A DNA stretch of 64,000 nucleotides from Levilactobacillus yonginensis (GTDB lineage Bacteria; Bacillota; Bacilli; Lactobacillales; Lactobacillaceae): positions 62,001 to 126,000 of the forward strand of contig NZ_OZ061549.1 in the NCBI RefSeq assembly GCF_964065165.1. Direction: 5' to 3'. Shown in pieces: positions 15,175 through 49,049 of this stretch (positions within the stretch are counted from its first letter, which is position 1; every line of letters begins with the position of its first letter). The notes below the pieces were generated by a model. It was given only the letters and a program-made list of their open reading frames with translations. It was not told where the DNA came from and searched no databases. The position numbers and the translations under genes were made by a program.

Positions 15175-15442
15175 TGACTCTAAGTATTACAACTCGGAAG
15201 GTGAGTTTGATCAGAAGCAACTAGATCGAGACGTTGACCGACTCTACGAGATTTACGAGCCCGTTTTAGCGGGTGTGGCTGAAACGCCTGATGAGGTCAT
15301 GCACTGGCCCTTGGATAAACGAATCCTGATGGGCAACTTGGCACAAAGAATCATTGCAGAGAAAACGGATCAGCGGGCTGTCGCTGTGAATAACGGGATC
15401 GCCATGGCACTTGATTCAATCAACAAAGCCAATAAGAAATAG
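15152..15442 (+). CDS. tail assembly chaperone, frameshift extension (T frame)
   Basis: An open frame with no usable start codon or ribosome site, in the +1 (equivalently -2) frame relative to the chaperone gene. It reads on from SNDSKYYNSEGEFDQKQL to ALDSINKANKK. The frames overlap at 15152-15174. The sequence TTTC (15154-15157) lets tRNA-Phe slip from TTT to TTC by +1 without losing pairing; CTC-TTC-TAA at the end is an alternative. The helical charged content is typical of the downstream half of tail chaperones, and it ends just before the tape measure gene. Confidence 0.65.
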   Translation, partial: RFCNHSSNDSKYYNSEGEFDQKQLDRDVDRLYEIYEPVLAGVAETPDEVMHWPLDKRILMGNLAQRIIAEKTDQRAVAVNNGIAMALDSINKANKK

Positions 15443-15453
15443 GAGGTGTGGCA

Positions 15454-18400: not shown

Positions 18401-20868
18401 CTATCACAAAACTGATGGCAGGGGAACACGTCTTAAATGCACGGGACACCGCCAAGATTACTCACGGCGGATTGGGCACTGGTAAAGTTCTCCCTGGTTA
18501 TGCCAAGGGGACCACGACGCTGGGTAAAGGCTCCAAGACCACGGTAAATGTGGCTGGTGTTAATGATGCCACGCTCAAAAACAACGAGTATAAAACCAAA
18601 CGGTCCGCCGACAAGATTGGCGCCGATATTGCGAAGGGGTACTCCAAGGGAACCAAGGGCGCACAAAGCAAGCTGACCACGTTCGGTAAGAAATCAGGCC
18701 GGTCATTCCGCTCGATTACTTCAAATACCAACAAACAGACTGACCTGATCCGCAAGCAGACCATTGCCGATTTTGATGAACTACAGAAAAAGTCGGATAA
18801 ACAAATCGTTCAAATGAAGAAGTCCATGGCCAAGACCATGAGTGATATTCACGCGGGCATGAATTCGGAAACGAAGGCCATGGTCAGCGATTTTGGTGAC
18901 ATCATGGGTAAACTTGCGGGATTAGCCCATAAGGCCATGAGTGGCGCTATTACGTCCCTTAACGGAGGTTTTAGCGGTATTGATTCGGCTCTTAGTCAGT
19001 TTGGCGGGAACAGCTCAGTTCTGAAACCGATTCACTATGCCGAAGGTTCTAAGGGACCAATCGACAGTGACCAGCTGGCTGTTCTGAACGATGCTACGTC
19101 GGGACCACGACAAGAATTAGTCGCCCGTGGTGGCCAGCTGTTAAAACCAATGGGTAATAACGTGGCCGTTCACTTGAAGAAGGGTGACGAGGTCTTCAAT
19201 GGATCACAAGTTGACCGAGCGCGACCTTATCTCCCTCATTTCAAGAAAGGAACTGGGTCAAGCGACTCCAAGCTTCGTTCACTGGCGTCGGCCAATGCGG
19301 GTGCCCCTGACAAGGCGTTCAACACCGAGTTCACGGTCAACGTCAAGGCCAACGGTTCTACTCTGCAGAAGGGTGTCACGAACACTGCGAATGCTGGAGC
19401 AAAGACGGTTGGTGTCCCATGGGAAAATGCAATGTGGGGATATATCGAATCATTGATCAGTTCTGGTGGTGGCGTCGGTGGTGGCCCTGTATTGCATTCT
19501 CCTGGTGCCGGCTGGATGAAGACATCCGGATTTGGTAATCGTGGGGCTGTCGGCGGTGGATTTAGTTCTCATGATGGAAACGACTTCTCCGGTTCTAAGA
19601 CAGTTCACGCCATGCAGGATGCGGTTGTTACTGGTGCTGGTGGGGCCCCAAGTGGTTGGGGCGGTGGTAATGGTATTGGGGAGTACATTTCTACCAAAGG
19701 TGGAAACCTCTCACTCATTTACCAAGAACTCAACGGCAAGAGCAACTCTGGTGCTACTTTACTGGTACACAAGGGTGATCACGTTAAACGTGGTCAAGAA
19801 ATTGCCAAGTTAGGGCCGTCTGGTACTCACGTCCACGTTGGGGCATCGACTGAGGGGCTTTGGTCTCATGGTGGTGGCTCAACGCGTGGTTGGCTCGACG
19901 TTACGAAGCTTAATGGGAATTTCGGAAACAAGGAAGGCAAAGCTAAAAAGAACACCAAGATTAGTAAGGCGATGACCTCACTGGTTAAGTCTCAACTCGG
20001 CTCTACGGCCATCAAGTGGATCAAGAAGAACCTGCAAGAATCCGATGACGTTGGTAGCTTCGGTCTATCCGGAAGCATTGCCAGTCGGGCCCGCACCTTA
20101 GCAGCGGCCATCAAGAAGATTTATGGTTCAGCGACTAACGCCGGAATCGCTGCCGTGTTGGGTAACTGGGAATTTGAATCTGGTTTGAACCCTGGGGCCA
20201 TTAACCCCGGTGGTGGTGCGTCCGGACTTGGTCAGTGGCTGGGTGGTCGTAAGTCCGCCCTGATCAGCTATGCCCGAAAGCATGGCGGTAATTGGAAGAA
20301 CGCAGGCACTCAATTAGCCTTCGCCCTACATGGTGATGGTTCGGATAGTAACGTTCTGAAGAGTGTCCTACGCGGTTCCGGATCCATTGCGGCACTGGCC
20401 AATAAATTCTCTAGTCAATGGGAACGTGGTGGCTACAATGCACAACACGTTGCCGGGGCCCGGAAGATTGAGGCTGCACTGCATAATGACGGCGGCTGGT
20501 CTAAGTCAGGCAAGCTGAATGTCTTTGGTGAAAAGGATCGTGAAGTTGCAATTAACCCTAAAAAGGCTAGTGCCGATGGATTGATTCAAAGCGCCATTAA
20601 GGCCCGTGCCGGTGTTGACGGTAGTGGCTTGGCTGGGACACTTAGCCGGGCTATGTCTAACCGTCCAGCCGCTGAACGAATCCCACAGGCTAAGGCCAAC
20701 GGGACTAGTAGTCGTAATGTGACGATCAAGATGACCAATAACATCACGGTTCAAGGCGGCGACGGGCAAAACGTTGATAAGCAAATTATCAGTGCAATGC
20801 AAACAGTAATTGGTAAGATTCGACGCGCAATTGGTACCGACCAAGGCGAAGGGAGCATGATTATCTAA
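15454..20868 (+). CDS. tape measure protein with M23 peptidase and tail lysozyme domains
   Basis: A 1804-residue protein. I take ATG 15454 (MACEIRRED), 8 bases after AGGAGG, rather than the GTG at 15448. Order: coiled N-terminal part; tape measure core with YAADALNKMAQSFYHV (about 255-270) and helices; Gly-rich hydrophobic stretch (about 690-730, GGVIGGTVGGIGG); long amphipathic region. Then comes an M23/LysM-type endopeptidase (SSHDGNDFSG at about 1371-1380 and THVHVG at about 1464-1469), and a phage tail lysozyme domain (about 1550-1690, AVLGNWEFESGLNP, ASGLGQW). It sets tail length, and the two enzymatic domains would open the cell wall during DNA entry. Codon/AT content changes in the middle third. 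Confidence 0.9.
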   Translation: MACEIRREDVGIGFNIDYQELEKLDTTIDKVVDKIATLGHKFEPINKQVTNFGRTFVDAIDKDIGANNRLADSNKEVSTTMQNNSRVATTFRDKIANINTVTDSYTSSQTRHYHEVGAALDQVNVHANKVGNTLRDLPKETTTKVAFDTNGVKTGAAEVQTQTRKVGGEMDKTAKKSRRLHDIIMGTFVGSAISNGVMALTNGLHEAAKAGMEYNKEQDTMKTVWKSLTTEAPKDGTGLVKYINSMSQHSIYAADALNKMAQSFYHVHSNEKETKNWTNDFIALGSTLHMSNDALAESGEQFAKIVAGGKASSEDMSVMINRFPMFGEALQKATGKSMKQLYAMSAAGKLSAKQFTETLTYLGKKYQGGTKEAMTSFMGMSMYLKSRFNTLAGDVMKTSFNMDKTTAKSMRDLLKDDMMKKYAKGISSALGVVTGAAVDAIQYLDKHKDTIVDIFGNIGDIAGIFGKEVWTDAVTILNDIGGAFGLVDKNGKAAKDPLDRLDALLKGIDKHKEGIKIAARAMVGFFAVKKASEFLKMLKEINTQLKISTVLDSAGSIGGSKVTESKSGKALGAVANNSWVLNGGLSSKRTKMIAAEDAPKIGSRLERYSMSGKASRLVAGVGAKIADSKAGTLLRGSKVGSLLKGTKALGSKIPYLDVALAGTSLIGMNKKNAGGKIGNFGGSLAGMEGGAAVGASLGSFLPGPGNVIGGVIGGTVGGIGGSKIGKFIGKSVQGALPGVKRTLSRMFGRLGKWVGSKLGTVFRVGGKIAKGSAKLLAAPFVFAVGLGTKAFNKLKKPVSRVLDWIGKQWSNFSKKVGKYWSKITAPIGRAWSKVATKTKKIWNGISDWLGQYFSKTGKWIGQTWDGIAHLFSKPLHFISDEFHSIFSGIKSFVGGIFDWISKKVGSLLGGLKKFGQGVGKVIKGIASWAGDVYNTGESTLSGKGHAAGGPIRNNGLAMVNEAGREIAYNSHKGTWRFLGNGPTITKLMAGEHVLNARDTAKITHGGLGTGKVLPGYAKGTTTLGKGSKTTVNVAGVNDATLKNNEYKTKRSADKIGADIAKGYSKGTKGAQSKLTTFGKKSGRSFRSITSNTNKQTDLIRKQTIADFDELQKKSDKQIVQMKKSMAKTMSDIHAGMNSETKAMVSDFGDIMGKLAGLAHKAMSGAITSLNGGFSGIDSALSQFGGNSSVLKPIHYAEGSKGPIDSDQLAVLNDATSGPRQELVARGGQLLKPMGNNVAVHLKKGDEVFNGSQVDRARPYLPHFKKGTGSSDSKLRSLASANAGAPDKAFNTEFTVNVKANGSTLQKGVTNTANAGAKTVGVPWENAMWGYIESLISSGGGVGGGPVLHSPGAGWMKTSGFGNRGAVGGGFSSHDGNDFSGSKTVHAMQDAVVTGAGGAPSGWGGGNGIGEYISTKGGNLSLIYQELNGKSNSGATLLVHKGDHVKRGQEIAKLGPSGTHVHVGASTEGLWSHGGGSTRGWLDVTKLNGNFGNKEGKAKKNTKISKAMTSLVKSQLGSTAIKWIKKNLQESDDVGSFGLSGSIASRARTLAAAIKKIYGSATNAGIAAVLGNWEFESGLNPGAINPGGGASGLGQWLGGRKSALISYARKHGGNWKNAGTQLAFALHGDGSDSNVLKSVLRGSGSIAALANKFSSQWERGGYNAQHVAGARKIEAALHNDGGWSKSGKLNVFGEKDREVAINPKKASADGLIQSAIKARAGVDGSGLAGTLSRAMSNRPAAERIPQAKANGTSSRNVTIKMTNNITVQGGDGQNVDKQIISAMQTVIGKIRRAIGTDQGEGSMII

Positions 20869-22163
20869 TGGTTAAAAAGGTGAAACTGGATATCACTCTG
20901 CAAAGGAACGTTTCAAGTATCGTTAAAGCAGAGCTTAACCGTTATATCAAGACTGGCCATAAGGCCGTTTCACCCCCGTTATTCATAACGCCACCGGCCG
21001 ACCTAAGCGACAAGTCGTTGGATTCTCACGTTAAATCTTCAAGTCAGGCGGTGAAAACTGATGCATCTAAGATTGCGGCGGTCAAAAAAACGATCGCCGC
21101 CCAGAAAGGCATTATTGACAAGACCGACAACTATTTGAGTAAACAGAATGGTTATAAGACGCGAAAGGCCGCCTATGACCATGTGACTGGACAGATAACT
21201 GCCTTTGAGAAGAAATTGGCCAAGGCCAAAACCGCTAAGGATAAGAAATCTATTCAGGGCCAGATCGCCTCTAAGAAGAAGGACCAAAAGGCCGCTTTTT
21301 CGGATCTTCGCAAGGTTACTAGTTCTAAGACGTATCAGGCTCAGCTTACTAAGCAAAGTAAGGCCCGTTCCAAACTGAAGGGAACCAAAAACAAACTTGA
21401 TAGCCTGAATCTTAAAAAATCTCAGGATAAAAAGAAAGCGGCCGATTATAAAAAGGAGCAGAACAAGCGTAAGGCCGCGGCGCGCAGAAAAAAACAGGCC
21501 GAGAACCAGGATAAAATAAACAAAAAAATAGCCGATCAAAAAAAACAACCTCTCGTTGGGCATACCGCACTTTACCGCGCGGACCGAATGAGTACGGTTG
21601 TTTATTTTTTCGGCGAGGTTAAACCTACCGAAACCGATACGAGTGAGGTTACTTCGATTGGGGTTGATAACGCTGACCCGCGGGCCGGTAAATCGACTCG
21701 GACGAGCAAGGAGTTAACTGGAACGTATTTGATTTTCGGTAAGAACCCGGCCGCGGTGTACAAGCAGTTTGCGGACCTGCAAAAACTGCAGCGGTTAGAT
21801 ACTGAGTTTATTATTCGCGGTTTTTCTAATTGGAACCACGTCAAGATTTCTTCAATTGCCAAGACGGTGTCCGGGTTGGCCCGGGAGAACGCATTGGAGC
21901 TATCCATTACGTTTACCTATGTTAAGCAGGCCAACATCTTGTATGCCAAGAAGAAAAAGAAAACCAAGAAAAAAGGTGCTACTAAGAGCACCAAGAAGAA
22001 AGGGTCCGATAAGGGCAAGTACCGTAGCCATACCGTCAAGTCCGGCGATACGTACTGGGGACTGGCTCGGAAATACCATACAACGGTGGCTACATTGACC
22101 AAACTCAACGGGTCCCGGTTCAAAACGATGTTTCCGGGGCACAAGCTAAAAATTCCGAAGTAG
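20868..22163 (+). CDS. LysM-containing baseplate/tail protein
   Basis: A 431-residue protein. Residues about 50-225 are Lys/Ala-rich coiled coil (KKSIQGQIASKKKDQKAAFS), about 240-360 a beta domain (TALYRADRMSTVVYFFGEV), and the C-terminus is a LysM module (HTVKSGDTYWGLARKYHTT to GHKLKIPK). This is the XkdP/T4 gp53-type baseplate protein found after the tape measure in myophages and PBSX-like particles. The LysM may bind peptidoglycan or act structurally. Its start overlaps the tape measure stop (ATGG overlap). Confidence 0.8.
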   Translation: MVKKVKLDITLQRNVSSIVKAELNRYIKTGHKAVSPPLFITPPADLSDKSLDSHVKSSSQAVKTDASKIAAVKKTIAAQKGIIDKTDNYLSKQNGYKTRKAAYDHVTGQITAFEKKLAKAKTAKDKKSIQGQIASKKKDQKAAFSDLRKVTSSKTYQAQLTKQSKARSKLKGTKNKLDSLNLKKSQDKKKAADYKKEQNKRKAAARRKKQAENQDKINKKIADQKKQPLVGHTALYRADRMSTVVYFFGEVKPTETDTSEVTSIGVDNADPRAGKSTRTSKELTGTYLIFGKNPAAVYKQFADLQKLQRLDTEFIIRGFSNWNHVKISSIAKTVSGLARENALELSITFTYVKQANILYAKKKKKTKKKGATKSTKKKGSDKGKYRSHTVKSGDTYWGLARKYHTTVATLTKLNGSRFKTMFPGHKLKIPK

Positions 22164-22175
22164 GAGGGGAAGAGG

Positions 22176-22529
22176 ATGCCTAAACGCGACAGCATTGAGT
22201 TTGATTTGAATAACTTGCCAGACACGATCGAAGTCGAGTTTGAAAACGGTGTGTTCGACCTTACCTTGCAACGGAATAAATTATCAGGCCAACTCACGAT
22301 CGATATTGTTTCGGTTGACGACGACAGCCGCGCCATCTACGGGGAACCCATTACGTATGGCGTTCCGTTGTGGTACTGGTGCTCCTATGACTGGATTCCC
22401 GTTGAGCGGTTGATCCCGTTTGACGAAGCCGGATTAGAGTCTACCGTAACGCTCAGTAAACTTCAAAATAGTGTCTTCATCTTAGATGACGATAGCATTT
22501 GGGAGAGTGGTGACAACGATGGGGCTTAG
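22176..22529 (+). CDS. baseplate plug protein
   Basis: A 117-residue protein with the pattern of phage baseplate plug proteins: FDLTLQRNKLSGQLTIDIVS followed by YGEPITYGVPLWYWCSYD. Homologues close the tube near the hub before ejection. Ribosome site AGGAGGGG upstream; it overlaps the next gene by 11 bases. Confidence 0.7.
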   Translation: MPKRDSIEFDLNNLPDTIEVEFENGVFDLTLQRNKLSGQLTIDIVSVDDDSRAIYGEPITYGVPLWYWCSYDWIPVERLIPFDEAGLESTVTLSKLQNSVFILDDDSIWESGDNDGA

Positions 22530-23463
22530 TATTACTAATCCAGGCGGTAAGACCTGGTATGGGGCCAAGATTGAAGTCATCGTGTATGCCAAGAGTGGTA
22601 CTTATCGTTTTACCAATTTCCATCCTAAAGGCTACGGGGTAAGTATAACCGGAGAAATTAGTGGAGGTGACGGGGGTTCCCCGGCCACCAATACGATTAC
22701 TCTGGCCAACTTATCTAAGGCTCACGAGGCCGTCTTTAAAACTAGGCTGCATATCGTTGTGAAGGCCGGCGGCTACGATATCTTCGGTATTATCGCAGCT
22801 GGAAACATCACCAAAATTTCCCCGGTCGCACGTGACGGTGAAGACCGTACCATTTCAGTGACTTTCGTGGCCGGTAAAGATTATGCCAAAAATAAGAAGG
22901 TCTACAACCCATATTCCGGGAGCAAGGCGGTCAAGCATTCTTATAAGACGTCCAGTGGTCGAACGATTACTTGGACGACGTCGAAGAAGAAACTTATGGC
23001 CATCAAGTTTAAACGTAACACCAAGGCTAAGACAATTATTAAGCGAATTAGTCGTGAGGCCGGTATTCCAATTGCCGTGCTGCACCTTAAGAAGAATAAG
23101 GTGTACAAACATGGCTACTCGTTAACCAAAAAGCCAGAATCGGCCATTAAGGCCATTGTTAAGGATTGTGGTAGTCGCTTCCAGTATCGAATGGACGATA
23201 TCGTGATCGACTACGAGGAGAAGCCCAAGCTATACCAAACGCACCTTTATTTCACACTGAAGGATGGCTTGGTCAATATGCCTACGATCAACAAAGAAGA
23301 CGGCAAGAAAGTTACTTGGACGATTGTAACCTATCTCAATCCCCTGGTGGCCAATGGTTCCGTTTTTTACGTGGCCGAGAATATCAAATCACTAGTGCGG
23401 GTAAAGAATTACACGCATTCCTTAGATGACATGCAAACGACTTGTGAAGTGGAGGTGGTCTAG
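22519..23463 (+). CDS. baseplate hub protein (gp27/XkdQ type)
   Basis: A 314-residue protein. I use ATG 22519 inside the end of the plug gene; the earlier start lacks a ribosome site. Features are the late-control/hub layout: an N-terminal beta barrel (ITLANLSKAHEAVF) and a middle helical segment followed by FQYRMDDIVIDY. A basic stretch (KTIIKRISREAGIPIAVLHLKK) is typical of hub proteins of Gram-positive myophages. It forms the trimeric centre of the baseplate. Confidence 0.7.
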   Translation: MGLSITNPGGKTWYGAKIEVIVYAKSGTYRFTNFHPKGYGVSITGEISGGDGGSPATNTITLANLSKAHEAVFKTRLHIVVKAGGYDIFGIIAAGNITKISPVARDGEDRTISVTFVAGKDYAKNKKVYNPYSGSKAVKHSYKTSSGRTITWTTSKKKLMAIKFKRNTKAKTIIKRISREAGIPIAVLHLKKNKVYKHGYSLTKKPESAIKAIVKDCGSRFQYRMDDIVIDYEEKPKLYQTHLYFTLKDGLVNMPTINKEDGKKVTWTIVTYLNPLVANGSVFYVAENIKSLVRVKNYTHSLDDMQTTCEVEVV

Positions 23464-23840
23464 TGAGCCAGGATAGAAATGATGCACTAAAGCTGATTGT
23501 CGATGAACTCATGCCTTACTTTCAGGCCGGAGTTAGTGTCCACTTAAAATGCCGGGTCGTTAGCATTGAATGGGGATCGCCAATGTATGCCGACGTACAA
23601 CCAATTGCCGAGCAATCTGACGGAACAACCAGGGCAATGATTGGCGACTGTTTGGTGTCTGCCGCGGCCGCAGAGTATTTGAAGGATGGGAAGCCAACCA
23701 AACTTAAACGCGGTGATATTGTGGAAGTTTCCTTTGATGATCGTGACCAGGATAATTTTACCGGTTCCGGAGAGTATAGCCTGGCTAGTCGGCGAATGCA
23801 TAGTGTCAATGACGGGACCGTTGTGGGGGTGATTAGGTGA
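23463..23840 (+). CDS. baseplate spike/Gp138-like protein
   Basis: A 125-residue protein starting at GTG 23463, which overlaps the hub stop. Pattern: RVVSIEWGSPMYADVQPIAE then KLKRGDIVEVSFDDRDQDNF, the OB-fold of Gp138-type membrane-piercing spikes or DUF2577-like proteins. It should sit at the tip of the tail tube. Overlaps the next gene by 4 bases. Confidence 0.65.
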   Translation: MSQDRNDALKLIVDELMPYFQAGVSVHLKCRVVSIEWGSPMYADVQPIAEQSDGTTRAMIGDCLVSAAAAEYLKDGKPTKLKRGDIVEVSFDDRDQDNFTGSGEYSLASRRMHSVNDGTVVGVIR

Positions 23841-24223
23841 GTCAAGATTTACAGGTCGATGAAACAAACGACATCCAATTGGATCCGGATACTGGCGATT
23901 TCATTATGACCGATGATTCTGATCTAACCGAGGCAACTCGGATAGCCCTGGGTACCAATGCGGGCGAATTGGAATGGAATACCGGCTTTGGCCTAGATCA
24001 CTTAAACCTGCTATCTATGATTGACGACGAACCAGCCATGGAGGCCGAAATCAGCGATTATCTGGAGGCCCAGTTTGATAACTTTGTGAGTGCCGAGATT
24101 ACTAGTGTGACGCGTAAGCAACGAGTAGCCACGATTAGTCTGAAGGTAATTTATTCTGATGACAACGGTAATGAGACGACGGCCGAAACAGAAACGGAGG
24201 TGGAGACCAATGGGAATGAGTGA
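23837..24223 (+). CDS. baseplate wedge protein, gp25-like (DUF2634)
   Basis: A 128-residue protein with the DUF2634 signature: DIQLDPDTGDFIMTDDSDLTEA, then RIALGTNAGELEWNTGFGLDH. It is the gp25/W-like wedge protein that connects sheath and baseplate. Starts at GTG within an overlap with the spike gene and overlaps the J-like gene downstream; all baseplate genes are coupled. Confidence 0.8.
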   Translation: MSQDLQVDETNDIQLDPDTGDFIMTDDSDLTEATRIALGTNAGELEWNTGFGLDHLNLLSMIDDEPAMEAEISDYLEAQFDNFVSAEITSVTRKQRVATISLKVIYSDDNGNETTAETETEVETNGNE

Positions 24224-25439
24224 TGACAAAACCGGGTTTGATAAGCTTGAACTCGATGATGTCCGAGAACTGACCGACCAAGGTTTTAAAGACCACTTTG
24301 GCGAAGATGCACCAGTCGACGACGCGCATCATATGGGTCAATTATCTGGCGTGATGGCCGCCCGAGGTGAGGACGTTGAAGAGCTGGCCCAAACCGTCAG
24401 AAATGCTAATTCCATTCTTCGTGGACGTAATCAGGACTTGGATATCTTAGGGGCCGATGAAGCCGTTAATCGAAAGCCTGCAACCTCCGCCACCGTTTAT
24501 CTGCAAATCGACGCCGATGTGGGGACCATTATCCCGGCTGGTACGGAGTATAGCACTGGCGAAGAGGTCATCTTTAATACGCTAGATGATGTTGCAGTCG
24601 GTGAGGTGGCCACTATTAAAGGGGACGATGGGAAAGATGTTCCTCTGACCGATGACGACGGTAATGAACTTGGCCGGGTAACGGTTCAGGCGCAGGCCGA
24701 TGAACCAGGATCAACGGGCAACGTCGGGGCCAACACCATTACTGGTGAAGAGAGTAGCGACGGCATCGAAGGCGTCATGCGAGTAACCAATCCTGAGCCT
24801 TCCTCCGGTGGGGCCGATATTGAGTCCGAAGTTGATTATCGGGCCCGGCTGATGACTAATCACCTAGCTAAATCAGACTCCACGGAAGATGGTATGACGG
24901 CCAAGGTCGACAACGTCGCCGGCGTAATCCAGTGTAAGGTGACTGCTAACAACGAACTTACTACTGACGCGGCTGGCAATCCACCGAAAACAACTCACTT
25001 CTATGTAATCGGTGGGGCCGACCAAGATGTGGCCGATGCCATTTTTCACTCGATTGCATTACCCGGGCATACCTATGGCGAGGTCTCCAAGACGGTTCTT
25101 AACCATAGCGGCCAAGAACGGACCGTTTATTTCTCGCGGGCCAAGCTACAAACCGTGTACGTTCAAATTCACATTAAAACGGATGACGGTTATGACAGTG
25201 ATAACGGTATTGCCAACTTAAAGAATCAGGTTTTAGCTTATGACCACACCTTAACTATGGGTGACTCGCTACTTTACTCGAAACTATTTGAATATCTCTG
25301 GCAAGTTAGTGGAATCACCAGTATCGGCCTAACTGTAGGGACTGATAAGACCAAACTAGCGCTTGGTAACGTGACCGTGGACGAATACTCACTGGCCTAC
25401 ATTACGTCTGACGATATCGAGGTGATCCTTGATGACTGA
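24210..25439 (+). CDS. baseplate J-like protein (gp47/gp6 type)
   Basis: A 409-residue protein starting at ATG 24210 with CGGAGGTGG just upstream. It contains the baseplate J pattern: NSILRGRNQDLDILGADEAVNRKPA, ATVYLQIDADVGTIIPAGTEYSTGE, DIESEVDYRARLM, and a C-terminal VNVTVDEY-like strand region. It forms the wedge arms that bear the receptor-binding proteins. Confidence 0.9.
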   Translation: MGMSDDKTGFDKLELDDVRELTDQGFKDHFGEDAPVDDAHHMGQLSGVMAARGEDVEELAQTVRNANSILRGRNQDLDILGADEAVNRKPATSATVYLQIDADVGTIIPAGTEYSTGEEVIFNTLDDVAVGEVATIKGDDGKDVPLTDDDGNELGRVTVQAQADEPGSTGNVGANTITGEESSDGIEGVMRVTNPEPSSGGADIESEVDYRARLMTNHLAKSDSTEDGMTAKVDNVAGVIQCKVTANNELTTDAAGNPPKTTHFYVIGGADQDVADAIFHSIALPGHTYGEVSKTVLNHSGQERTVYFSRAKLQTVYVQIHIKTDDGYDSDNGIANLKNQVLAYDHTLTMGDSLLYSKLFEYLWQVSGITSIGLTVGTDKTKLALGNVTVDEYSLAYITSDDIEVILDD

Positions 25440-26151
25440 TGACCAATGGCAAGACCTATGGGAAGATCTTCAGGTCGACGATGATACGCTTCGTCAGAAG
25501 GTGATGAACGCCTTACCGGGCATGATGAATCAAAATCCGGATAGTACCAATCAAGCGGTTCTAGAGATTATCGCTGATGAGGTTGTACGTGAGGTGGATC
25601 GATTCCGGACAATCTGGAAGGAATATTTACTGGATAACCAGAGCGGTACCGTCCTTGATGCGACAGCGGCAGACTGGGGCATTAGTCGGATTGACAATGA
25701 TGACGACTTCCTTCGGTTCCAGATTCGGTTGTCCCGGATGCTGGCTCGAATGGGGGTCACGGAGAACGACATCATTGACCTGATTGCCTACATCTTACAG
25801 GCGGACCCGACCGAGTTCGATGTAATCACTGATCCGGAACAGCTGGGCGGGGATCCGGAGGCGGTGCGATTCACCAACATTCCGAATCGCTATAGTAAGT
25901 CTGCTCGTAAAAAGAACCTTCTGGTTAAAGCACTAGAGTCAGCCGTTATGCCAGAAGTAAAAATTGTCAGCGTTGACTTTCAAGCTGTCGCTACCCAGAC
26001 GCTATACGTGGCCACAGTCACTAAAAAGGAGCGTTCTCACTTTGCTGTTATGGATAGCATGAGAGACCGCGCACACACTACGGATGATAATACGACCGTG
26101 GCCACAGTCACTCAGCGGCAGCGGCTTCACCAAGTCTCTAAGGAGGGATAA
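25432..26151 (+). CDS. baseplate wedge protein, gp48/YmfQ-like
   Basis: A 239-residue protein starting at ATG 25432, overlapping the J-like gene. The segment LEIIADEVVREVDRFRTIWKEYLLDNQSG, followed by LDATAADWGI, is the typical beginning of DUF2313/gp48-like proteins that link the wedge to the tail fibre. It is directly followed, after 2 bases, by the receptor-binding protein gene. Confidence 0.7.
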   Translation: MTDDQWQDLWEDLQVDDDTLRQKVMNALPGMMNQNPDSTNQAVLEIIADEVVREVDRFRTIWKEYLLDNQSGTVLDATAADWGISRIDNDDDFLRFQIRLSRMLARMGVTENDIIDLIAYILQADPTEFDVITDPEQLGGDPEAVRFTNIPNRYSKSARKKNLLVKALESAVMPEVKIVSVDFQAVATQTLYVATVTKKERSHFAVMDSMRDRAHTTDDNTTVATVTQRQRLHQVSKEG

Positions 26152-26153
26152 AA

Positions 26154-28235
26154 GTGCAATTTGATACTACCTATTTGACCGAAGCTGGTCGATCACTGGC
26201 AACAGGCACACTTGGGGGCTTGGATAAAATCCAGTTCACCCGAGCAGTGGCCTCAAGCCATGATTACTCAGCTACTCCGGTCAACGATTTAAAAAAGCTC
26301 ACATCAATTGAAGATGTGCAACAAACGGTCGATTACTCACGAATCATTAAGAAGGATGACACTACCTTGACTATGCGGGTAGACTTTCCGTCTAAAGATG
26401 TAACAACGGCATACAGTCTCTATACAGTCGGCTTTTATGCACGACCAGAAAACGGGGATGAAATTCTGTATGGAGTACTGCCGAGCTCTCTACCAGACTA
26501 CATTGTTGCATATGACGGCAAGTCCAACTTAAATGATTCATTCCAGACTGATACAACGGTTAGTGATGCCGATAATGTTTTGATTACTGTCAGTCAGGCT
26601 GGGTCGCTTAATGAAGCCGACCTTGATGCAATCTTTGCATCAAAACACATTGCAACGGTTGAAGACATCAAGGATAACTTGCCGGATGACATCGCCAAGA
26701 CCAGCGAGGACAATACCTTCACGGGCACCAACACCTTTGAGAAGGACCCGGTGGATGCCGCGGGTGATCCGTATGTAACGGGTGCCGGAGCAATTGCAGC
26801 AGCCCAAGGCCACTTTGCTCAGGCGAGCGAATCTGGCGGAGTAACGATTGACGGCGTTGAACTGGGAGTAGACACCGCCGGAAAGCTCAAGTATGGCGAT
26901 GATTTAGTACTGATGGCGAATAAGCCGCAGGCACCAGGTTTCACCGTCGAAATGGACTTTTCCGTTGGTCAGCCACAATGGACGGTCACACTGCCTAAGA
27001 TTGATGGTGGGGCCTCGATCGTGTCTTCAACCGTGCAGTACCGTAAGAGCGGCGACACCGATTGGACCAGCATTCAATCTGCAGTATCCACGCTGACGGG
27101 CCATGTAACCGGGCTCACAGGCAACTCGGAGTATGAATTCCAAGCCTTCGTCACCAACTATGCCGGCGACAGCCCCTACTCAGAAGTGATGACCGTGAAG
27201 ACCATGGATGACCGATTTTTCGGCGCGTCTTGGGACATGAGTAGTGATCCGAAGCTAACCCGTACAGATGCCGCGGTCGGCTTGGTAGCAGGGATTAACG
27301 GAGCTCAGAACGACTTTGACACAGTTGGCCCTTGGGCAAAGATGGACAAGACTATCACGGACGATAAGGGCAACTCTTTCGTCCGAATTCCTAAGCTGTA
27401 TATCAAGAAAACTCAGACCGATAAGCTAGCGACCTGGCAAGTATCCTTGAGCAAAATCGATGATTCCTGGTATCTGCCAAAGTGTTTCTGGGACTTCACT
27501 AATCAAAAAGAGTTGGATTACGTGGACGTGGGTCGTTATGAAGGAACAATCAGTAGCGGCAAGCTACAATCTAAGAGTGGAGTAATGGCAACGGTTTCTC
27601 AATCGATTGGAACGTTCAGAACGGATGCTAAAGCCAACGGGACTGGGTATCAGTTGCTAGATGTTCATGTGATTGATGTTTGGCAAGTGCTATTTGTCAT
27701 TGAGTTTGCAACTATTAATTCTCAGAGTATCATGAACGGAATTTCTAGTGGGTCACAAGTGACAAACGGCTCTGGAACCAATCATGCTGGTTCTTCTGGA
27801 TTCCTGTCTCCAACGGGTGCAATGGATTATCGTGGGATTGAGAACCTGTATGGAAACATTTTTCAGTTTGCCGATGGCGTTAATATGGCCTCAACAAAGC
27901 CATGGGTATGTGATGATTCGTCTAAGTATCAATCAGATCTATTTGCCGCCCCTTATACTAGTTTGAACTATTCGGTAGCAGCAACAGGGTACTCTGAACA
28001 AATGGGATTAGACACCAATCATCCTTTTGCCCAGTTTGCGACGAAAACAGGGGGCAGTGAGTCCACCTATTACTCAGATTACAACTATACCCCAAGTGGT
28101 AACTGTGTAGCTCTTTACGGCGGCGACTGGAACAGGTCCGGCGGCGATGGCGTTTTCTGCTGGCATCTGTACGAGTCGTCTTCGGGCTTGTTTTCTGACT
28201 TCGGGTCGCGTCTCGTTAAAAAGGCTTTGGCTTAA
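26154..28235 (+). CDS. receptor-binding/tail fibre protein, DGR variable protein
   Basis: A 693-residue protein starting at GTG 26154. Residues about 1-170 are a baseplate-attachment domain (phage tail-collar type), 185-245 a connector, and 248-340 a fibronectin type III-like domain (KPQAPGFTVEMDFSVG to MTVKTMD). Residues about 350-693 form a formylglycine-enzyme/C-type-lectin-like fold with the end YGGDWNRSGGDGVFCWHLY, SSSGLFSDFGSRL. The last 95 coding bases before VKKALA are the variable repeat of a diversity-generating retroelement: positions 658, 661, 664, 669, 673, 678, 680 and 683 differ from the template. It should decide host receptor binding, and the DGR should rewrite its binding surface. 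Confidence 0.9.
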   Translation: MQFDTTYLTEAGRSLATGTLGGLDKIQFTRAVASSHDYSATPVNDLKKLTSIEDVQQTVDYSRIIKKDDTTLTMRVDFPSKDVTTAYSLYTVGFYARPENGDEILYGVLPSSLPDYIVAYDGKSNLNDSFQTDTTVSDADNVLITVSQAGSLNEADLDAIFASKHIATVEDIKDNLPDDIAKTSEDNTFTGTNTFEKDPVDAAGDPYVTGAGAIAAAQGHFAQASESGGVTIDGVELGVDTAGKLKYGDDLVLMANKPQAPGFTVEMDFSVGQPQWTVTLPKIDGGASIVSSTVQYRKSGDTDWTSIQSAVSTLTGHVTGLTGNSEYEFQAFVTNYAGDSPYSEVMTVKTMDDRFFGASWDMSSDPKLTRTDAAVGLVAGINGAQNDFDTVGPWAKMDKTITDDKGNSFVRIPKLYIKKTQTDKLATWQVSLSKIDDSWYLPKCFWDFTNQKELDYVDVGRYEGTISSGKLQSKSGVMATVSQSIGTFRTDAKANGTGYQLLDVHVIDVWQVLFVIEFATINSQSIMNGISSGSQVTNGSGTNHAGSSGFLSPTGAMDYRGIENLYGNIFQFADGVNMASTKPWVCDDSSKYQSDLFAAPYTSLNYSVAATGYSEQMGLDTNHPFAQFATKTGGSESTYYSDYNYTPSGNCVALYGGDWNRSGGDGVFCWHLYESSSGLFSDFGSRLVKKALA
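28120..28214 (+). repeat. DGR variable repeat (VR)
   Basis: Aligns without gaps to 28285-28379. Over the 93 bp from 28122, 11 of the 20 adenines of the template are changed (to G or T), while only one of 73 non-adenines differs (T to G at 28136). All changes alter codons: N to D, R, G, Y, G, F; Y to C; I to F. The 3' end (TCGGGTCGCGTCTC, 28201-28214) is invariant and is the likely IMH site that starts mutagenic homing. Confidence 0.95.
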
Positions 28236-28241
28236 GGAGGA

Positions 28242-28261
28242 CCGGGGGAGTTCTCCCCCGG
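28242..28261 (+). promoter_or_regulatory. GC-rich hairpin/cruciform downstream of VR
   Basis: CCGGGGGAG (28242-28250), TT, CTCCCCCGG (28253-28261): a perfect 9-bp stem, or 8 bp with a GTTC tetraloop, six bases after the stop codon. DGR target sites such as that of phage BPP-1 carry short GC-rich inverted repeats with 4-base loops just after VR that raise homing efficiency. A weak terminator role is possible, but only four Ts follow after a gap. Confidence 0.8.
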
Positions 28262-28284
28262 GAACTTTTGGGGATTTGTGGTGC

Positions 28285-28379
28285 GCGGCAACTGGAACAA
28301 TTCCGGCAACGATGGCGTTTTCTACTGGCATCTGAACGAGTCGTCTTCGAACTTGAATTCTGACATCGGGTCGCGTCTC
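28285..28379 (+). repeat. DGR template repeat (TR)
   Basis: Non-coding copy of VR in which all variable codons are AAC, AAT, TAC or ATC, i.e. adenine at mutable positions. In VR frame it reads NWNNSGND, VFYWHLNE, SNLNSDIGSRL. It should be transcribed into RNA and copied by the RT with adenine-specific errors. It sits 71 bases after VR and 157 bases before the RT gene; the whole element has the same orientation as the tail operon. Confidence 0.95.
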
Positions 28380-28536
28380 CTTATTTGATGAATGAAATTG
28401 CACTGCATCTTCCCTGCCACTTGGCAAAAATTAGGCTGCTCAAAGCAGGAGCTAGTAGGATATCTCGAAAGTTCTTGAAGCTAATAAGGAAAACAAATTG
28501 CATAAATGCACATTTTGAAAAGAAAGGAGGAGCCTA
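28380..28536 (+). ncRNA. TR-RT spacer, likely cDNA-priming RNA region
   Basis: 157 bases between TR and the RT start with no open frame of note. It can form small hairpins, e.g. CTGCT/AGCAG around 28431-28446 and TGCAT/ATGCA around 28499-28510. In BPP-1 the RNA between TR and the RT gene folds and primes cDNA synthesis; the same role is inferred here from position and length. Confidence 0.5.
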
Positions 28537-29586
28537 ATGAAGCGATATGGAAACTTGTTCGATAAAATTGTGAGTTCAGACAATCTGGGGCTTGCAATTG
28601 AAGAGGCCTCTAAGGGAAAACGCACCCGTAAGGGTGTTTCCCGTGTTCTGGATAACAAAGATTTCTACGTCATGCAGTTGCATGACATGCTAGTAGACCA
28701 TGAGTACGTGCCTAACCATGTGGTTCGGCGCGTTATCCGTGACAAGGTGAAAACACGAACAATTGCTAAGCCACAGTTCTACCCGGACCAGGTAATTCAG
28801 TGGGCAACGATGCTAGTGCTACAGCCCATTTTTCTTAAAGGCATGTATGAGTACAGTGTGGGCTCAATCCCTCATCGCGGCACTTCGATGGGCCAGAAGG
28901 CGGTTAAAAAGTGGTTGCAAAATGACCCGAAAAATACGAAGTACTGCTTAAAAATGGATGTGCATAAGTTTTACCCATCCATCAACACTTCTGTGCTAAA
29001 GTCCAAGTTCCGTCGGAAAATCAAAGACCAGGATATCCTTTGGCTGCTTGATACACTTGTAGACCAGTTCGATAAAGGCCTACCAATCGGATTTTACTCC
29101 AGTCAGTGGTTTGCCAACTTTTTCCTGCAGGACCTAGACCACTACATCAAAGACAATTTGCAAATTCCATACCTAGTGCGAAACATCGATGACTTAGTGC
29201 TGTTAGGGCCAAACAAGAAGAAGTTACACAAAGCGGAGCGAGCGATATCTAGCTACCTGGCTGCTGAAGACTTAGAAGTAAAGCCCAACTGGCAGGTCTT
29301 CAAGGTTAATTCACGTCCGATTGATTTTTTGGGAATGCGCCTTTACCGGGGCCACACGACTTTGCGGCGCCGTAACGCGTTAAAAATCAAGCGAAGAATG
29401 GCTAAGATTTCCAAGAAAGCAACGCTAAACCGTTTTGACGCGGCGAGCGTTATAGCTTACTGGGGCTGGCTAAAGCACACCAACTCATACGGCTTCTATC
29501 ATAAGTACGTGAAACCCAACTGTTCGATCAAAAAAGCAAAGGGGATTGTCAAACATGAAAACAATTTACGCAACCGCACCGACTGA
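28537..29586 (+). CDS. DGR reverse transcriptase
   Basis: A 349-residue RT with strong AAAGGAGGAG site. Motifs: RT1 KTRTIAKPQFYPDQVIQWA (72-90), RT2 YSVGSIPHRGTSMG (106-119), RT3 LKMDVHKFYPSI (catalytic D141), RT4 GLPIGFYSSQWFANFF (181-196), RT5 VRNIDDLVLLG (catalytic D218, D219), RT7 RPIDFLGMRL (260-269). The IGxxxSQ in RT4 is the mark of DGR RTs (others have QGxxxSP). The usual Tyr of YxDD is Asn216 here. A basic C-terminal tail (RRRNALKIKRRMAKISKK) probably binds RNA. It copies TR RNA into adenine-mutated cDNA. No Avd gene lies next to it. The end overlaps the next gene. Confidence 0.93.
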   Translation: MKRYGNLFDKIVSSDNLGLAIEEASKGKRTRKGVSRVLDNKDFYVMQLHDMLVDHEYVPNHVVRRVIRDKVKTRTIAKPQFYPDQVIQWATMLVLQPIFLKGMYEYSVGSIPHRGTSMGQKAVKKWLQNDPKNTKYCLKMDVHKFYPSINTSVLKSKFRRKIKDQDILWLLDTLVDQFDKGLPIGFYSSQWFANFFLQDLDHYIKDNLQIPYLVRNIDDLVLLGPNKKKLHKAERAISSYLAAEDLEVKPNWQVFKVNSRPIDFLGMRLYRGHTTLRRRNALKIKRRMAKISKKATLNRFDAASVIAYWGWLKHTNSYGFYHKYVKPNCSIKKAKGIVKHENNLRNRTD

Positions 29587-30025
29587 TAAGCCGGCCGGCT
29601 ATGCCGTGTATGCCTTAGATCCGGTGCCCTACGGGGCGGACAAATATATCGGTTGGAAGATGGTCAAGATGAAGCAAACACTGGCCCTAGATGATAATGG
29701 CAAACAAATCATAGGCTCGGACGGCAAGCCACAAATGTTGTGTGTGGATGATCCAGACGCCGAAGTAACTTATGACCCGCACACCCAGGTGCTTAAACAG
29801 GTTGACCAGCAGGGTGAGCAAATTGAGCAACAGACGAAAAACATTGAGTCATTGCAAACTGAAAATAAAAGCCTTAAGTCAGCCAATGAGTTAACGCAGC
29901 AAGGGCTGATGGAAGCCGTCGATTACTTGTCTTCAAAACTAACACCGGCTAGCACCACGACCGACACCGGCTCAGCTGCAACAAGTACAGCAGCCCCAGC
30001 TAGTTCGGCAGCGAGTGAATCCTAG
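29555..30025 (+). CDS. phage tail-region coiled-coil protein
   Basis: A 156-residue protein. I use ATG 29555 (AAAGGGG 11 bases upstream) rather than the TTG at 29546. N-terminal half: a small beta domain (AGYAVYALDPVPYGADKYIGW). Residues about 80-115 are a Gln/Glu coiled coil (VDQQGEQIEQQTKNIESLQT), and the tail is Ala/Ser/Thr-rich. Such proteins often follow the fibre gene and sit with XkdX/CD1375-type proteins. It overlaps the RT gene by 32 bases; it is not an obvious Avd homologue. Confidence 0.6.
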   Translation: MKTIYATAPTDKPAGYAVYALDPVPYGADKYIGWKMVKMKQTLALDDNGKQIIGSDGKPQMLCVDDPDAEVTYDPHTQVLKQVDQQGEQIEQQTKNIESLQTENKSLKSANELTQQGLMEAVDYLSSKLTPASTTTDTGSAATSTAAPASSAASES

Positions 30026-30037
30026 GAGGTGATGGCA

Positions 30038-30169
30038 ATGGAATATTCTGCATTGGCACAGATTTACGCGCAAGCAATTATTGATGGCACACGGACTATT
30101 GAAGCCGTACCAGTCCCGTTTCGGTCTGATACCCAAGCCGTTTTGACGCAGTTACAATCAAACAAATAA
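30038..30169 (+). CDS. CD1375-like small phage protein (copy 1)
   Basis: A 43-residue protein after AGGAGGTG. It carries the pattern LAQIYAQAIIDGTRTIEAVP found in CD1375/XkdX-like small proteins located after tail fibre genes of Firmicutes phages. Function unknown. The next gene encodes a close relative (LAAIYAANVLDGGRTIEEVP), so this is a tandem duplication. Confidence 0.7.
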   Translation: MEYSALAQIYAQAIIDGTRTIEAVPVPFRSDTQAVLTQLQSNK

Positions 30170-30183
30170 GGAGATAATAAACT

Positions 30184-30354
30184 ATGTTAAATTTCAAATT
30201 TTCAGCTTTAGCTGCTATCTATGCCGCAAACGTTTTGGACGGTGGTCGAACTATTGAAGAAGTCCCAGCCTACTTGCAGGACGATGTGAAGAATGTCCTT
30301 GGATCCGCAAAAAACTCTACCAGCATCTATTCATCTACTACGCCTGTGGCCTAG
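30184..30354 (+). CDS. CD1375-like small phage protein (copy 2)
   Basis: A 56-residue protein starting MLNFKFSALAAIYAANVLDG after GGAGATAA. The first 40 residues match the preceding gene; the last 16 (SAKNSTSIYSSTTPVA) do not. A canonical A-AAA-AAC slip site lies in frame at 30309-30315, and the -1 frame continues into a transmembrane-like peptide ending at 30404, so a longer membrane-anchored form is likely. Confidence 0.65.
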   Translation: MLNFKFSALAAIYAANVLDGGRTIEEVPAYLQDDVKNVLGSAKNSTSIYSSTTPVA

Positions 30355-30404
30355 GATTGATGATTGGTGCTTTTTTGATGGGATTTTTTGTGGGAAAGGG
30401 GTGA
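30309..30404 (+). CDS. -1 frameshift extension with a transmembrane segment
   Basis: An open frame without a start codon or ribosome site, in the -1 frame of the CD1375-like gene. From the slip site it reads KKLYQHLFIYYACGLGLMIG, then AFLMGFFVGKG and stop: basic residues followed by one clear membrane helix with glycine-zipper spacing. The zero-frame codons GCA AAA AAC contain A-AAA-AAC, the classic -1 slippery heptamer. No strong downstream hairpin was found by eye. Confidence 0.45.
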   Translation, partial: KKLYQHLFIYYACGLGLMIGAFLMGFFVGKG

Positions 30405-30409
30405 AGTAA

Positions 30410-30841
30410 TTGCATCGTATTAAAGATGGCCCGGTTCAACGGGCCTTTTCGCATTGGAATCATTTTTGTTTTGGCTTATTTTCAATGATAGGCGGCTTGT
30501 ATATTTGGTTTCATCAAGGCTATTTAGATGATCCACGGGTGACACCACCGCCACCACCTTCACCGGCTGAACATGCAATCTTTGCCTTTGCTGACGACTG
30601 GTGGTTTTCATTGTGGTTAATTATCTGTGGTCTCGCTATTCTGGTTGGCGTCTTTCACAACCGGCGGTTGTTACGTGATGGTGGCCTAGTCGCCCTATCA
30701 CCGGCAATGGGGGCCTTATCAGTGGCTTTTATTGTTCGGGGCTTGTTTGATGTGCGGTTTAACCTAACGTGGGTATTCGCCTTACTCATGCTGTTCTTGC
30801 TAGTCGGTACGTTGATTAGGGGGGACACACATGGATATTAA
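30410..30841 (+). CDS. phage membrane protein, unknown function
   Basis: A 143-residue protein starting at TTG 30410 after GGGGTGA. Four predicted membrane helices (about 18-34, 65-82, 93-110, 118-135), with a Pro-rich loop TPPPPPSPAEH between the first two. It belongs to the lysis-end cluster and may be a holin-like or superinfection-related membrane protein. No family recognised. Its end overlaps the next gene. Confidence 0.6.
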   Translation: MHRIKDGPVQRAFSHWNHFCFGLFSMIGGLYIWFHQGYLDDPRVTPPPPPSPAEHAIFAFADDWWFSLWLIICGLAILVGVFHNRRLLRDGGLVALSPAMGALSVAFIVRGLFDVRFNLTWVFALLMLFLLVGTLIRGDTHGY

Positions 30842-31193
30842 GTCCTGGACAGTTGCTTTAGGTGCGCTGGGAACGTTTGTAACCACTATCTGGGCTGTTA
30901 TTCATGGCTACCATTCTGACACACGGCAAGCTGACCAGGATCGCAAGGGCATGGAGAAGTACATTATGGAGCAAGTCAAAGCTGATAACGAATTGCTTCG
31001 TAAAGAACGCGAGAGTGATCAAGCGCAATACGCACGGAATCTGACCGACTTGAAGGCTAAGAAAGGTGCCATGGAACAAGAATTTAACCAGCAGATTGCC
31101 TTGAAGGTTAGTGAGAATAAAGCTTTGCGAAAACGCAACGCCGCTTTAGAACGTGAGAATCAAGCGTACTGGGAACGGTATGGTGATCTTTAG
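30831..31193 (+). CDS. membrane-anchored coiled-coil protein of the lysis cluster
   Basis: A 120-residue protein: one N-terminal membrane helix (WTVALGALGTFVTTIWAVIH, residues 6-25), then a long charged coiled coil (LLRKERESDQAQYARNLTDL). Such proteins commonly precede holins in lactobacillus and listeria phages and are annotated as hemolysin XhlA-like or DUF2730-like. A role in lysis timing is inferred from position. Confidence 0.6.
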   Translation: MDIKSWTVALGALGTFVTTIWAVIHGYHSDTRQADQDRKGMEKYIMEQVKADNELLRKERESDQAQYARNLTDLKAKKGAMEQEFNQQIALKVSENKALRKRNAALERENQAYWERYGDL

Positions 31194-31204
31194 GAGGAAA
31201 AAGC

Positions 31205-31723
31205 ATGAATGAATTTACGAAGATTATTAAATTACTCAACGACACCGGTATCTTAGGTGTCTTAATTTTTGCCTTAGTTGGCTGGTTTACCCGGATCAAT
31301 CCTGCTTTAAAGACCAAGATTGTGGCGAATAAGTCCGCTACTCAACGCGAAGTGTTGGGACTGTTAGACACATTAGCGTTCAGTGCTGTCAACCAGGTGG
31401 CCACTAATTATGAAATGCCAGGGGAAGAAAAGCGTGAGCAGGCGATTGCTGATGTAACAGGCCAAATGAAAGTATTTGGTCATGACAGTCTGGCACCGGC
31501 AATTATTTCAGCAGCCATCGAAAAAGCGTATCAGTCGATGACCACGACGGAGACGAAAGCCCAAGCAAAACAGGCTGAATACAATGCCGCTCTGGCGGAC
31601 ACAGAGCAAACGTTCGCTGATAAACAAGCACAACTGGACAAGCAAGCTGCGACAGTGCCCGCTGAACCAGCACCCTTAGATGTGCCAGAAGACGTGGCCG
31701 CTACGGAGGGAGATGTGAAGTAA
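31205..31723 (+). CDS. holin, LL-H family
   Basis: A 172-residue protein with AGGAGG upstream. One N-terminal hydrophobic helix (ILGVLIFALVGWFTRI, about 15-30) is followed by a helical soluble domain and an Ala/Glu-rich tail. The order and the internal segment VLGLLDTLAFSAVNQVATNYEMPG match the phage_holin_6 (LLH) family of lactobacillus phages. It should form membrane lesions that release the endolysin encoded right after it (stop-start overlap at 31723). Confidence 0.75.
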   Translation: MNEFTKIIKLLNDTGILGVLIFALVGWFTRINPALKTKIVANKSATQREVLGLLDTLAFSAVNQVATNYEMPGEEKREQAIADVTGQMKVFGHDSLAPAIISAAIEKAYQSMTTTETKAQAKQAEYNAALADTEQTFADKQAQLDKQAATVPAEPAPLDVPEDVAATEGDVK

Positions 31724-32775
31724 TGCCGCATTATGATGTTGTGGATACGTCCAATAACAATGGAATCATGACCGTTGCCAATTGGCGTTCAATGAAAAAG
31801 TATGGTGTCAAAGCCATGATAGCTAAGCTATCCGAAGGCACGTACTTCACTGACCAAACGGCCAAGCAAAGCATTCGTAACGCGGTATCTGCTGGCTTAC
31901 ACGTCAACGGCTATCACTTTGCCCGATTTACGACAGTGGCTGGGGCTAAGGCCGAAGCCCAGATGGCAGCCCGAAGTGCGCTTAAGGCAGGATTGGGCAA
32001 GAGCAGTGTGATCGTACTTGACTTTGAAGCCACCAACTCTGGTTGGAATCAGAACTCTAAAATTGTTAAGGCCTGGATTAACGAAGTTCATCGCATGGGC
32101 TATCCCAAAACGGATGTCTATACGATGGGTAGCTGGATTAATTCAGTGCCATTGAACAACTCGGGCCGTGGTGGTTGGGTAGCTAACTACCCTTATAACC
32201 CGTCAGGATTTAAGCTCTATACCGGATATAATGGTTGGCAATGGACATCAAGCATGCACTTCCCGGGCTGTTATGGAACATTTGATGTGTCCCAGATGTA
32301 CTCTAACTATTACTACGGCACCGCAACCAAGGCGGTTAAACCGAAGAAGGCCATCTATTACCGATACAATCCCAAGATGATCTATGCCCGGACGCCAATT
32401 AATCGCTACAAGGATGTTGCCTTCAAACACAAAGTAGACAGTTTCCCGGCCGGCACCGTATTTGCGATTGCTAAAGTGGTAACCTATGGTAAAATTACCC
32501 GGTTCCAGTTGGCCAACGGGTACTATATCACGTCTAACCAAGACAATGTAAATCGACTTTACTATGTGGCTGGTGGTGATGTCAAACGAGTGAAGTCTGT
32601 ACGCGGTACTCATCGGTACAAAGATAAGGCCCTCAAACATGTTGTGGACTGGCAGCCAGCCGGCGCTGAATTTGATGTCGCTAAGATCGTCAAGTATGGA
32701 TATACAACTCGGATTCAGTTGGCTAATGGATTATTTATTAGTGGCAACAAAAAGATTAACAGTTTTATCAAGTAA
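31723..32775 (+). CDS. endolysin, GH25 muramidase with two C-terminal SH3-like repeats
   Basis: A 350-residue protein without a signal peptide. Residues 1-195 form a GH25 lysozyme: VVDTSNNNG at the start, IVLDFEATNS carrying the catalytic Asp/Glu (about 102-111), and WQWTSS near 173. Two related repeats follow (about 220-280 and 290-350; YKDVAFKHKVDSFPAGTVF / YKDKALKHVVDWQPAGAEF), of the DUF5776/SLAP-like wall-binding type. It hydrolyses the glycan backbone at the end of infection. A terminator follows directly. Confidence 0.9.
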   Translation: MPHYDVVDTSNNNGIMTVANWRSMKKYGVKAMIAKLSEGTYFTDQTAKQSIRNAVSAGLHVNGYHFARFTTVAGAKAEAQMAARSALKAGLGKSSVIVLDFEATNSGWNQNSKIVKAWINEVHRMGYPKTDVYTMGSWINSVPLNNSGRGGWVANYPYNPSGFKLYTGYNGWQWTSSMHFPGCYGTFDVSQMYSNYYYGTATKAVKPKKAIYYRYNPKMIYARTPINRYKDVAFKHKVDSFPAGTVFAIAKVVTYGKITRFQLANGYYITSNQDNVNRLYYVAGGDVKRVKSVRGTHRYKDKALKHVVDWQPAGAEFDVAKIVKYGYTTRIQLANGLFISGNKKINSFIK

Positions 32776-32782
32776 CACACGA

Positions 32783-32815
32783 AGGCGCTCACTCCTGACG
32801 GGGTGGGCGCTTTTT
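32783..32815 (+). terminator. terminator after the endolysin
   Basis: GGCGCTCACTCC pairs with GGGGTGGGCGC across TGAC, followed by TTTTT. It ends the late transcript. Confidence 0.8.
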
Positions 32816-33172: not shown

Positions 33173-33226
33173 GGATAGAAAGCTCTATCCAGTCCCCACC
33201 TCCGGTATAAGAAGTTTCATCTCGGG

Positions 33227-48465: not shown

Positions 48466-48612
48466 ACATGTCACTCCTTCATTGAATAGGTACTACTGCC
48501 ATTGTATTCGCTTTCATCGGAGAAAGCACGCCATCCGGGATTTATCGTCGAAATGTCGGGGCAAACGTGGTAAGCTTTTAACAGCGATTCTGAGAAAGGG
48601 GTGTGGAGAACC

Positions 48613-49004: not shown

Positions 49005-49006
49005 AT

Positions 49007-49037: not shown

Positions 49038-49049
49038 CAAAGAGTAAGG

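Follow-up and report, generated by a model that had tools for sequence, protein, structure and literature searches.

Diversity-generating retroelements (DGRs) are already known and have been described in Firmicutes phages (PMC8144416), although its main text does not contain "Lactobacill", and in the literature searched the terms "diversity-generating retroelement" and "Levilactobacillus" were not found together. In the DGR of phage BPP-1 (NC_005357), a variable repeat (VR), a template repeat (TR) and a reverse transcriptase (RT) gene follow one another near the lysis genes. The same order is found in the element described here, which lies in a 64-kb stretch of Levilactobacillus yonginensis DNA (64,000 nucleotides, positions 62,001 to 126,000 of contig NZ_OZ061549.1; hereafter the window), part of a 2.65-Mb contig in a genome of 2.88 Mb. 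From its sequence, we read it as a complete phage DGR composed of VR, a hairpin, TR, an RT-18 RNA and an RT with an NIDD motif, predicted to alter the tip of a tail protein with a likely role in host binding; we give this reading a probability of about 0.92. What is distinctive is the lack of a recognizable Avd protein, the RT-18 RNA and the asparagine in the catalytic motif.

The likeness to BPP-1 extends to differences between VR and TR that fall at adenines, with one exception in the window (17 of 23 template adenines and no other base in BPP-1), to a structured RNA between TR and RT, and to a target with a C-type-lectin fold, which is predicted in the window. BPP-1 also has a hairpin with an 8-bp stem and a 4-base loop, but 19 nt after VR instead of 27 nt. 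Other features set the two apart: VR and TR are separated by 437 bases including avd in BPP-1 and by 70 bases in the window, where no Avd was found; the BPP-1 spacer RNA belongs to RF03022 (Phage_DGR, Bacteriophage Diversity-Generating Retroelement RNA; 104.7 bits), whereas that of the window is RT-18; and the BPP-1 RT carries YMDD where the window RT, 32% identical to it, carries NIDD. The element thus shows none of three traits of a BPP-1-type DGR (a recognizable Avd, an RF03022 spacer and YxDD).

A second described relative is Lactobacillus phage LBR48 (GU967410, Anamdongvirus), a mitomycin-induced myophage of L. brevis. Its RT, annotated only as a putative reverse transcriptase, is 85.6% identical to that of the window and contains RNIDD, and LBR48 shares RT-18, a TR and the same downstream genes up to the lysozyme. 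Its TR is of another type, however, and over window positions 15000-32800, the sole part compared, only 17% is covered, at 90% identity. Neither "retroelement" nor "reverse transcriptase" occurs in the available parts of the searched literature on L. brevis phages. The same layout, with RNIDD, RT-18 and hairpin, is present in Levilactobacillus lanxiensis (L003), Levilactobacillus tangyuanensis (L004) and L. brevis CD0817 (L005), which differ from the window by other VRs, two TR types and a mosaic RT.

Repeats, hairpin and target gene

A plain repeat search blind to adenines, together with a count, yielded VR (28120..28214, + strand) and an intergenic TR (28285..28379, + strand). Over their gapless alignment of 95 positions, 11 of the 20 template adenines are changed (seven A>G, four A>T, no A>C), compared with one of the 75 other sites (T>G at 28136; Fisher p = 2.3e-8), and eight codons are altered (N>D, N>R, N>G, Y>C, N>Y, N>G, N>F, I>F). 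An earlier, sequence-only reading of this DNA had reported the gapless alignment with the same 11 adenines and eight codons, and our re-alignment reproduced it; its single non-adenine change also held, its denominator of 73 being 75 on recount.

VR ends with 14 bases exactly common to TR (TCGGGTCGCGTCTC, 28201..28214, + strand), a candidate initiation of mutagenic homing (IMH) site, which agrees with the invariant 3' end previously proposed for this role. The repeats diverge immediately afterwards, the next base being G in VR and C in TR. A GC-rich hairpin follows VR (28242..28261, + strand), as had been predicted, although its perfect stem has 8 bp with a 4-base loop and reaches the predicted 9 bp only with a 2-base loop.

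We compared these features with unique VR/TR pairs near related RTs. The scan covered 142 loci, of which 16 gave no pair above threshold (four are copies of LBR48); the remaining 126 collapse to 61 unique pairs including BPP-1, which are not all independent as they hold 55 distinct TR cores. A stem of at least 6 bp occurs within 60 nt after VR in 45 of the 61 pairs and after TR in three, the frequency in shuffled sequences being 5.8%. Changes affect 854 of 1560 template adenines and 34 of 5137 other sites, a contrast that is partly built in because the scan penalizes non-adenine mismatches more.

The target gene (26154..28235, + strand) encodes a 693-aa tail protein, likely the receptor-binding protein (phrog_5302, tail, 9.2e-58, residues 398-691), with a middle part that is Fn3-like under the Pfam cut-off. 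Its C-terminal domain (residues 395-693; 27336..28232, + strand) is predicted to adopt the C-type-lectin/formylglycine-generating enzyme fold of DGR variable proteins; by fold comparison the predicted domain is TaqVP-like, and the Mtd fold is matched as well. The features by which DGRs are recognized are hence found together: an RT of the DGR clade (see below), a nearby TR/VR pair with adenine mismatches, a VR at the 3' end of a gene for a predicted C-type-lectin-fold protein, and an IMH-like shared 3' end with a downstream hairpin.

The 5' flank of TR (28257-28299), read in the frame of VR, gives PGNFWGFVVRGNWN, which by eye is similar to SGNCVALYGGDWN in the target; TR therefore probably originated as a copy of the end of the target gene. 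The 3' arm of the VR hairpin falls inside this apparent copy. At about 520-545 of the LBR48 record (L002, GU967410.1), the receptor-binding protein codons that just precede VR join what is left of the hairpin (its 3' arm) and the flank of TR, with Ns nearby; VR, the stop codon and the 5' arm of the hairpin are absent at this junction. This gap is either a deletion or an assembly error.

The RT-18 RNA and the search for Avd

TR and RT are separated by 157 bases, which hold the Rfam RNA RT-18 (RF03021; 28415..28491, + strand; 66.6 bits, gathering threshold 41.3); in the predicted TR transcript, this RNA would be the structured spacer. RT-18 was found above gathering directly before the RT in 12 out of 12 loci (L002-L013) and in 16 out of 16 (L016-L031, some of them copies of one contig); L014 and L015, copies of L004 and LBR48, stood outside the Rfam scans. 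Two scans of further loci, with L037, L038, L042 and L045 in both, returned RT-18 in 4 of 16 and 5 of 15, the remainder having RT-17 in two cases, RT-9 in one and none of the three in 19. Among 397 Lactobacillaceae genomes, scanned with stricter filters that can lose weak matches, RT-18 is present in nine, the same nine that carry this RT at E < 1e-80, and in none of the 25 that have only distant RTs. The rarity suggested by the sequence-only reading is borne out, but the element is not unique: it occurs in these nine genomes, and LBR48 carries a related RT. Across 329 genomes of the phylum, both RT-18 matches outside the window (one below gathering) belong to a DGR with RT, TR and VR.

The structure of this RNA is conserved by compensatory changes. 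Unaided, RNAalifold recovered 10 pairs from a MAFFT alignment of 33 spacers (31 distinct), nine of them with two-sided changes. Under the Rfam RT-18 structure, two-sided changes occur in 15 of 16 pairs, which was matched by 5 of 500 shuffles, and the covariation score was reached by none of the 500; 91.5% of the cells pair, compared with 31-45% when the structure is slid along the alignment. RT-18 is thus very probably the structured part of the template RNA in these Avd-less DGRs.

As printed, the Rfam names do not link RT-18, RT-17 (RF03020) or RT-9 (RF03080) to DGRs. Weinberg 2017 is said to be the source paper of these RNAs, and may itself tie RT-18 to DGRs. PMC8143477, in the part available, lists that paper among its references, and RT-18 RNA, RT-17 RNA, RF03021 and RF03020 are not named in the literature searched. 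RT-17 (in L188 and L033) and RT-9 (in L189) likewise lie between TR and RT, directly before the RT, of DGR-like elements, so that other RNAs of this numbered RT series may also belong to DGRs. Across the 329 genomes of the phylum, RT-17 was matched only in the window itself, below gathering. The spacer also contains a 50-aa open reading frame (ORF; 28387-28536) that abuts the RT start; we do not retain it as a protein gene, as it recurs only in L003 among the 40 loci listed.

Searches for Avd were negative. The profile phrog_3206 matched none of 11 genomes with this type of element and its one BPP-1 control, and the Pfam bAvd family had no match in the source genome and matched BPP-1; a PF05635 search, which matched no control, is uninformative on this point. 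A 124-aa ORF between VR and TR in L037 was considered as an Avd and rejected, no Avd family being matched. A helper protein unrelated to Avd is possible.

In BPP-1, according to the available part of PMC12875486, the RT-Avd complex is drawn to the spacer, in which an internal adenine serves as the primer for cDNA. By analogy, TR and RT-18 would be carried on one transcript, on which RT-18 would hold the RT and prime cDNA synthesis, making an Avd protein unnecessary. The RT would copy the TR part with errors at adenines, and the mutated copy would replace VR, which the hairpin may mark for replacement; the changed residues would then face the host receptor.

An asparagine in the catalytic motif of the RT

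The RT (28537..29586, + strand; 349 aa) is the sole RVT_1 match in the source genome, and its best PDB relative, by sequence as well as by fold, is a DGR RT (PDB 8ub7). It displays PIGFYSSQ at residues 183-190 (29083..29106, + strand), in keeping with the DGR-type IGxxxSQ that the sequence-only reading had pointed out. Absent from that reading is the departure from YxDD: alignments place NIDD at the catalytic motif (residues 216-219; 29182..29193, + strand). The tyrosine of YxDD lies at the active site of RTs.

RNIDD is shared by six aligned RTs (the window, LBR48, the L. lanxiensis, L. tangyuanensis and L. brevis loci and the metagenomic viral contig L013), compared with RYxDD in 26 other aligned DGR RTs. 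Of 2486 database relatives, the best 120 were compared: 114 keep a tyrosine, whereas the six closest carry RN[I/V]DD. In a joint alignment, asparagine occupies the motif position in all 12 rows of the branch and tyrosine in all 140 others. Five further residues mark the NIDD branch, including Ser188, inside GxxxSQ, where 135 of the 140 relatives have threonine.

The 12 NIDD rows form one clade (support 100/99), whose sister consists of eight YMDD rows, mostly from Lactobacillaceae. The phylogeny suggested as a check groups the window RT with the RTs of DGRs, that of BPP-1 among them (98/97), and separates it from 13 group II-like and eight retron-like RTs. This tree covered part of the available loci, without RTs shorter than 300 aa (L012, L050) and without L080, L081, L085, L087, L088 (no match), L089 and L090, and counted L086 with the retrons. 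A codon-pattern scan, two IMG/VR protein scans and genus and order searches returned no further NIDD loci with DNA. By eye, the C-terminus of the window RT is similar to that of the YMDD sister clade (P0007). One Apilactobacillus plasmid match, at 52.5%, stood outside the motif comparison.

Could the asparagine have retuned the active site in such a way that the enzyme stopped inserting dG opposite template adenine and A>C disappeared from its mutation spectrum? In the five NIDD pairs that carry this test, 54 changes comprise 35 to G, 19 to T and none to C, whereas A>C accounts for 178 of 783 changes in the 55 other pairs (p 2.7e-6; BPP-1 is excluded from these group counts). All five NIDD loci have zero A>C, compared with 5 of 53 others with at least seven changes (p 5.5e-5). 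However, A>C is already low in the YMDD sister clade (10/94; p 0.014 against 0/54). The BPP-1 RT favours dG at adenines before C (PMC12875486); at such positions the NIDD value of 0/54 does not differ significantly from the sister clade (3/58, p 0.24) or from more distant pairs (6/193, p 0.34), although it does from Bacillales-like relatives (20/91, p 7e-5). The link between NIDD and A>C loss, which initially appeared strong, is therefore weak once the sister clade and sequence context are included.

Spectra also vary between lineages in any case. In a YMDD branch of 11 IMG/VR pairs (L038, L039, L041-L045, L047-L049, L051), A>G makes up only 6 of 146 changes (74 to T, 66 to C), a near-absence that indicates lineage-specific DGR spectra; no RT-18 was found in those loci of L038-L051 that were scanned. 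Sites and loci are, moreover, not independent, and a single evolutionary change is involved, which limits any statement on cause. The A>C deficit may be older than the motif change and is a lead, and we find it doubtful that the asparagine itself produced it.

The asparagine might instead have disabled the enzyme, the differences between VR and TR being a fossil of past activity. Several observations weigh on this side or, more generally, against our reading. The tyrosine is invariant in 140 of 140 relatives, which taken alone would suggest impaired catalysis, and in the available part of the DiGReF paper (PMC3521204) only phenylalanine is named as its replacement, in 14% of cases, the aspartates being invariant. 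The deposited LBR48 genome lacks VR and the full hairpin, though it keeps TR, RT-18 and RT. Set beside L003 and L013, the cassette proves to be mosaic between window positions 28240 and 29440: around the RT start, from 300 bases upstream to 200 bases downstream, the window hardly differs from L003, and its RT bases 500-900 match L013 without a difference. Such recombination means that a given VR may have been mutated beside another RT, a caveat qualified by the fact that every NIDD-branch RT so far seen has the asparagine motif. Lastly, none of RT-18, RT-17 and RT-9 scores above gathering in 11 of 16 and 8 of 15 loci of the two further Rfam scans, which makes the RNA typical of a branch and not of all DGRs.

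Set against a decayed element is the fixation of asparagine throughout a clade of 12 rows in which identity to the window RT falls as low as 70-71%, with a dN/dS of 0.019-0.055 in seven NIDD-branch pairs (dS up to 1.9). The comparison of VRs in related phages, another proposed check, points the same way. The window and L. lanxiensis have identical TRs and only five differences in the 300 bases preceding VR, yet their VRs differ at 11 positions, 10 of them at template adenines; L004 and L013 also share a TR, and their VRs differ at 16 positions, all at template adenines. Two TR types coexist in the NIDD branch, with 57-58 mismatches over 95 positions when aligned without gaps, and each equals its own VR outside adenines, save for one base in the window. 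These natural differences between VRs beside the same TR fit mutagenic retrohoming. Strong purifying selection, together with same-TR VRs that differ almost only at adenines, indicates that the NIDD enzyme very likely works, and we consider its decay improbable.

A group II intron or retron RT standing by chance beside a duplicated gene end, to which the best NCBIfam match would point (a group II RT model, 83.4 bits, below its cut-off of 300), is contradicted by the RT tree, the PDB kinship, the GxxxSQ motif, the adenine bias and the VR hairpin, and can practically be dismissed.

Prophage setting and implications

The DGR is part of a prophage of about 47.1 kb delimited by a 17-bp repeat. The attR core (CCCCACCTCCGGTATAA) lies at 33194..33210 (+ strand), and attL, with the same repeat, corresponds to the 3' end of a tRNA-Leu(caa) (G000:C1:48108-48124) adjoined by an integrase gene (48286-49470, minus strand; Pfam Phage_integrase, 6.1e-25). 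Since genes for the large terminase, tail sheath, tape measure, baseplate hub, baseplate J, holin and endolysin are present, the host element looks like a complete myoprophage, its gene content having been partly checked. The cassette lies among its late genes, in agreement with the sequence-only reading. The prophage also contains a HicA toxin-like gene (1655-1954; Pfam HicA_toxin, 1.3e-14) followed by a HicB-like antitoxin gene (2071-2454).

A broader proposal, which we consider less likely than not, is that Lactobacillus phages harbour a whole DGR branch devoid of Avd and made of two parts only, in which RT-18 would substitute for the protein and an asparagine active site would misread adenine without placing dG opposite it. 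An enzyme under selection that has asparagine at this site, in a small system with a compact RNA and no recognizable Avd, is a natural experiment that bears on the chemistry of the active site, on what RNA can achieve by itself and on why DGR enzymes misread adenine only. The analysis also provides a likely function for RT-18, an Rfam RNA family so far designated by a number only, and suggests that phages of food lactobacilli can vary the tips of their tails.

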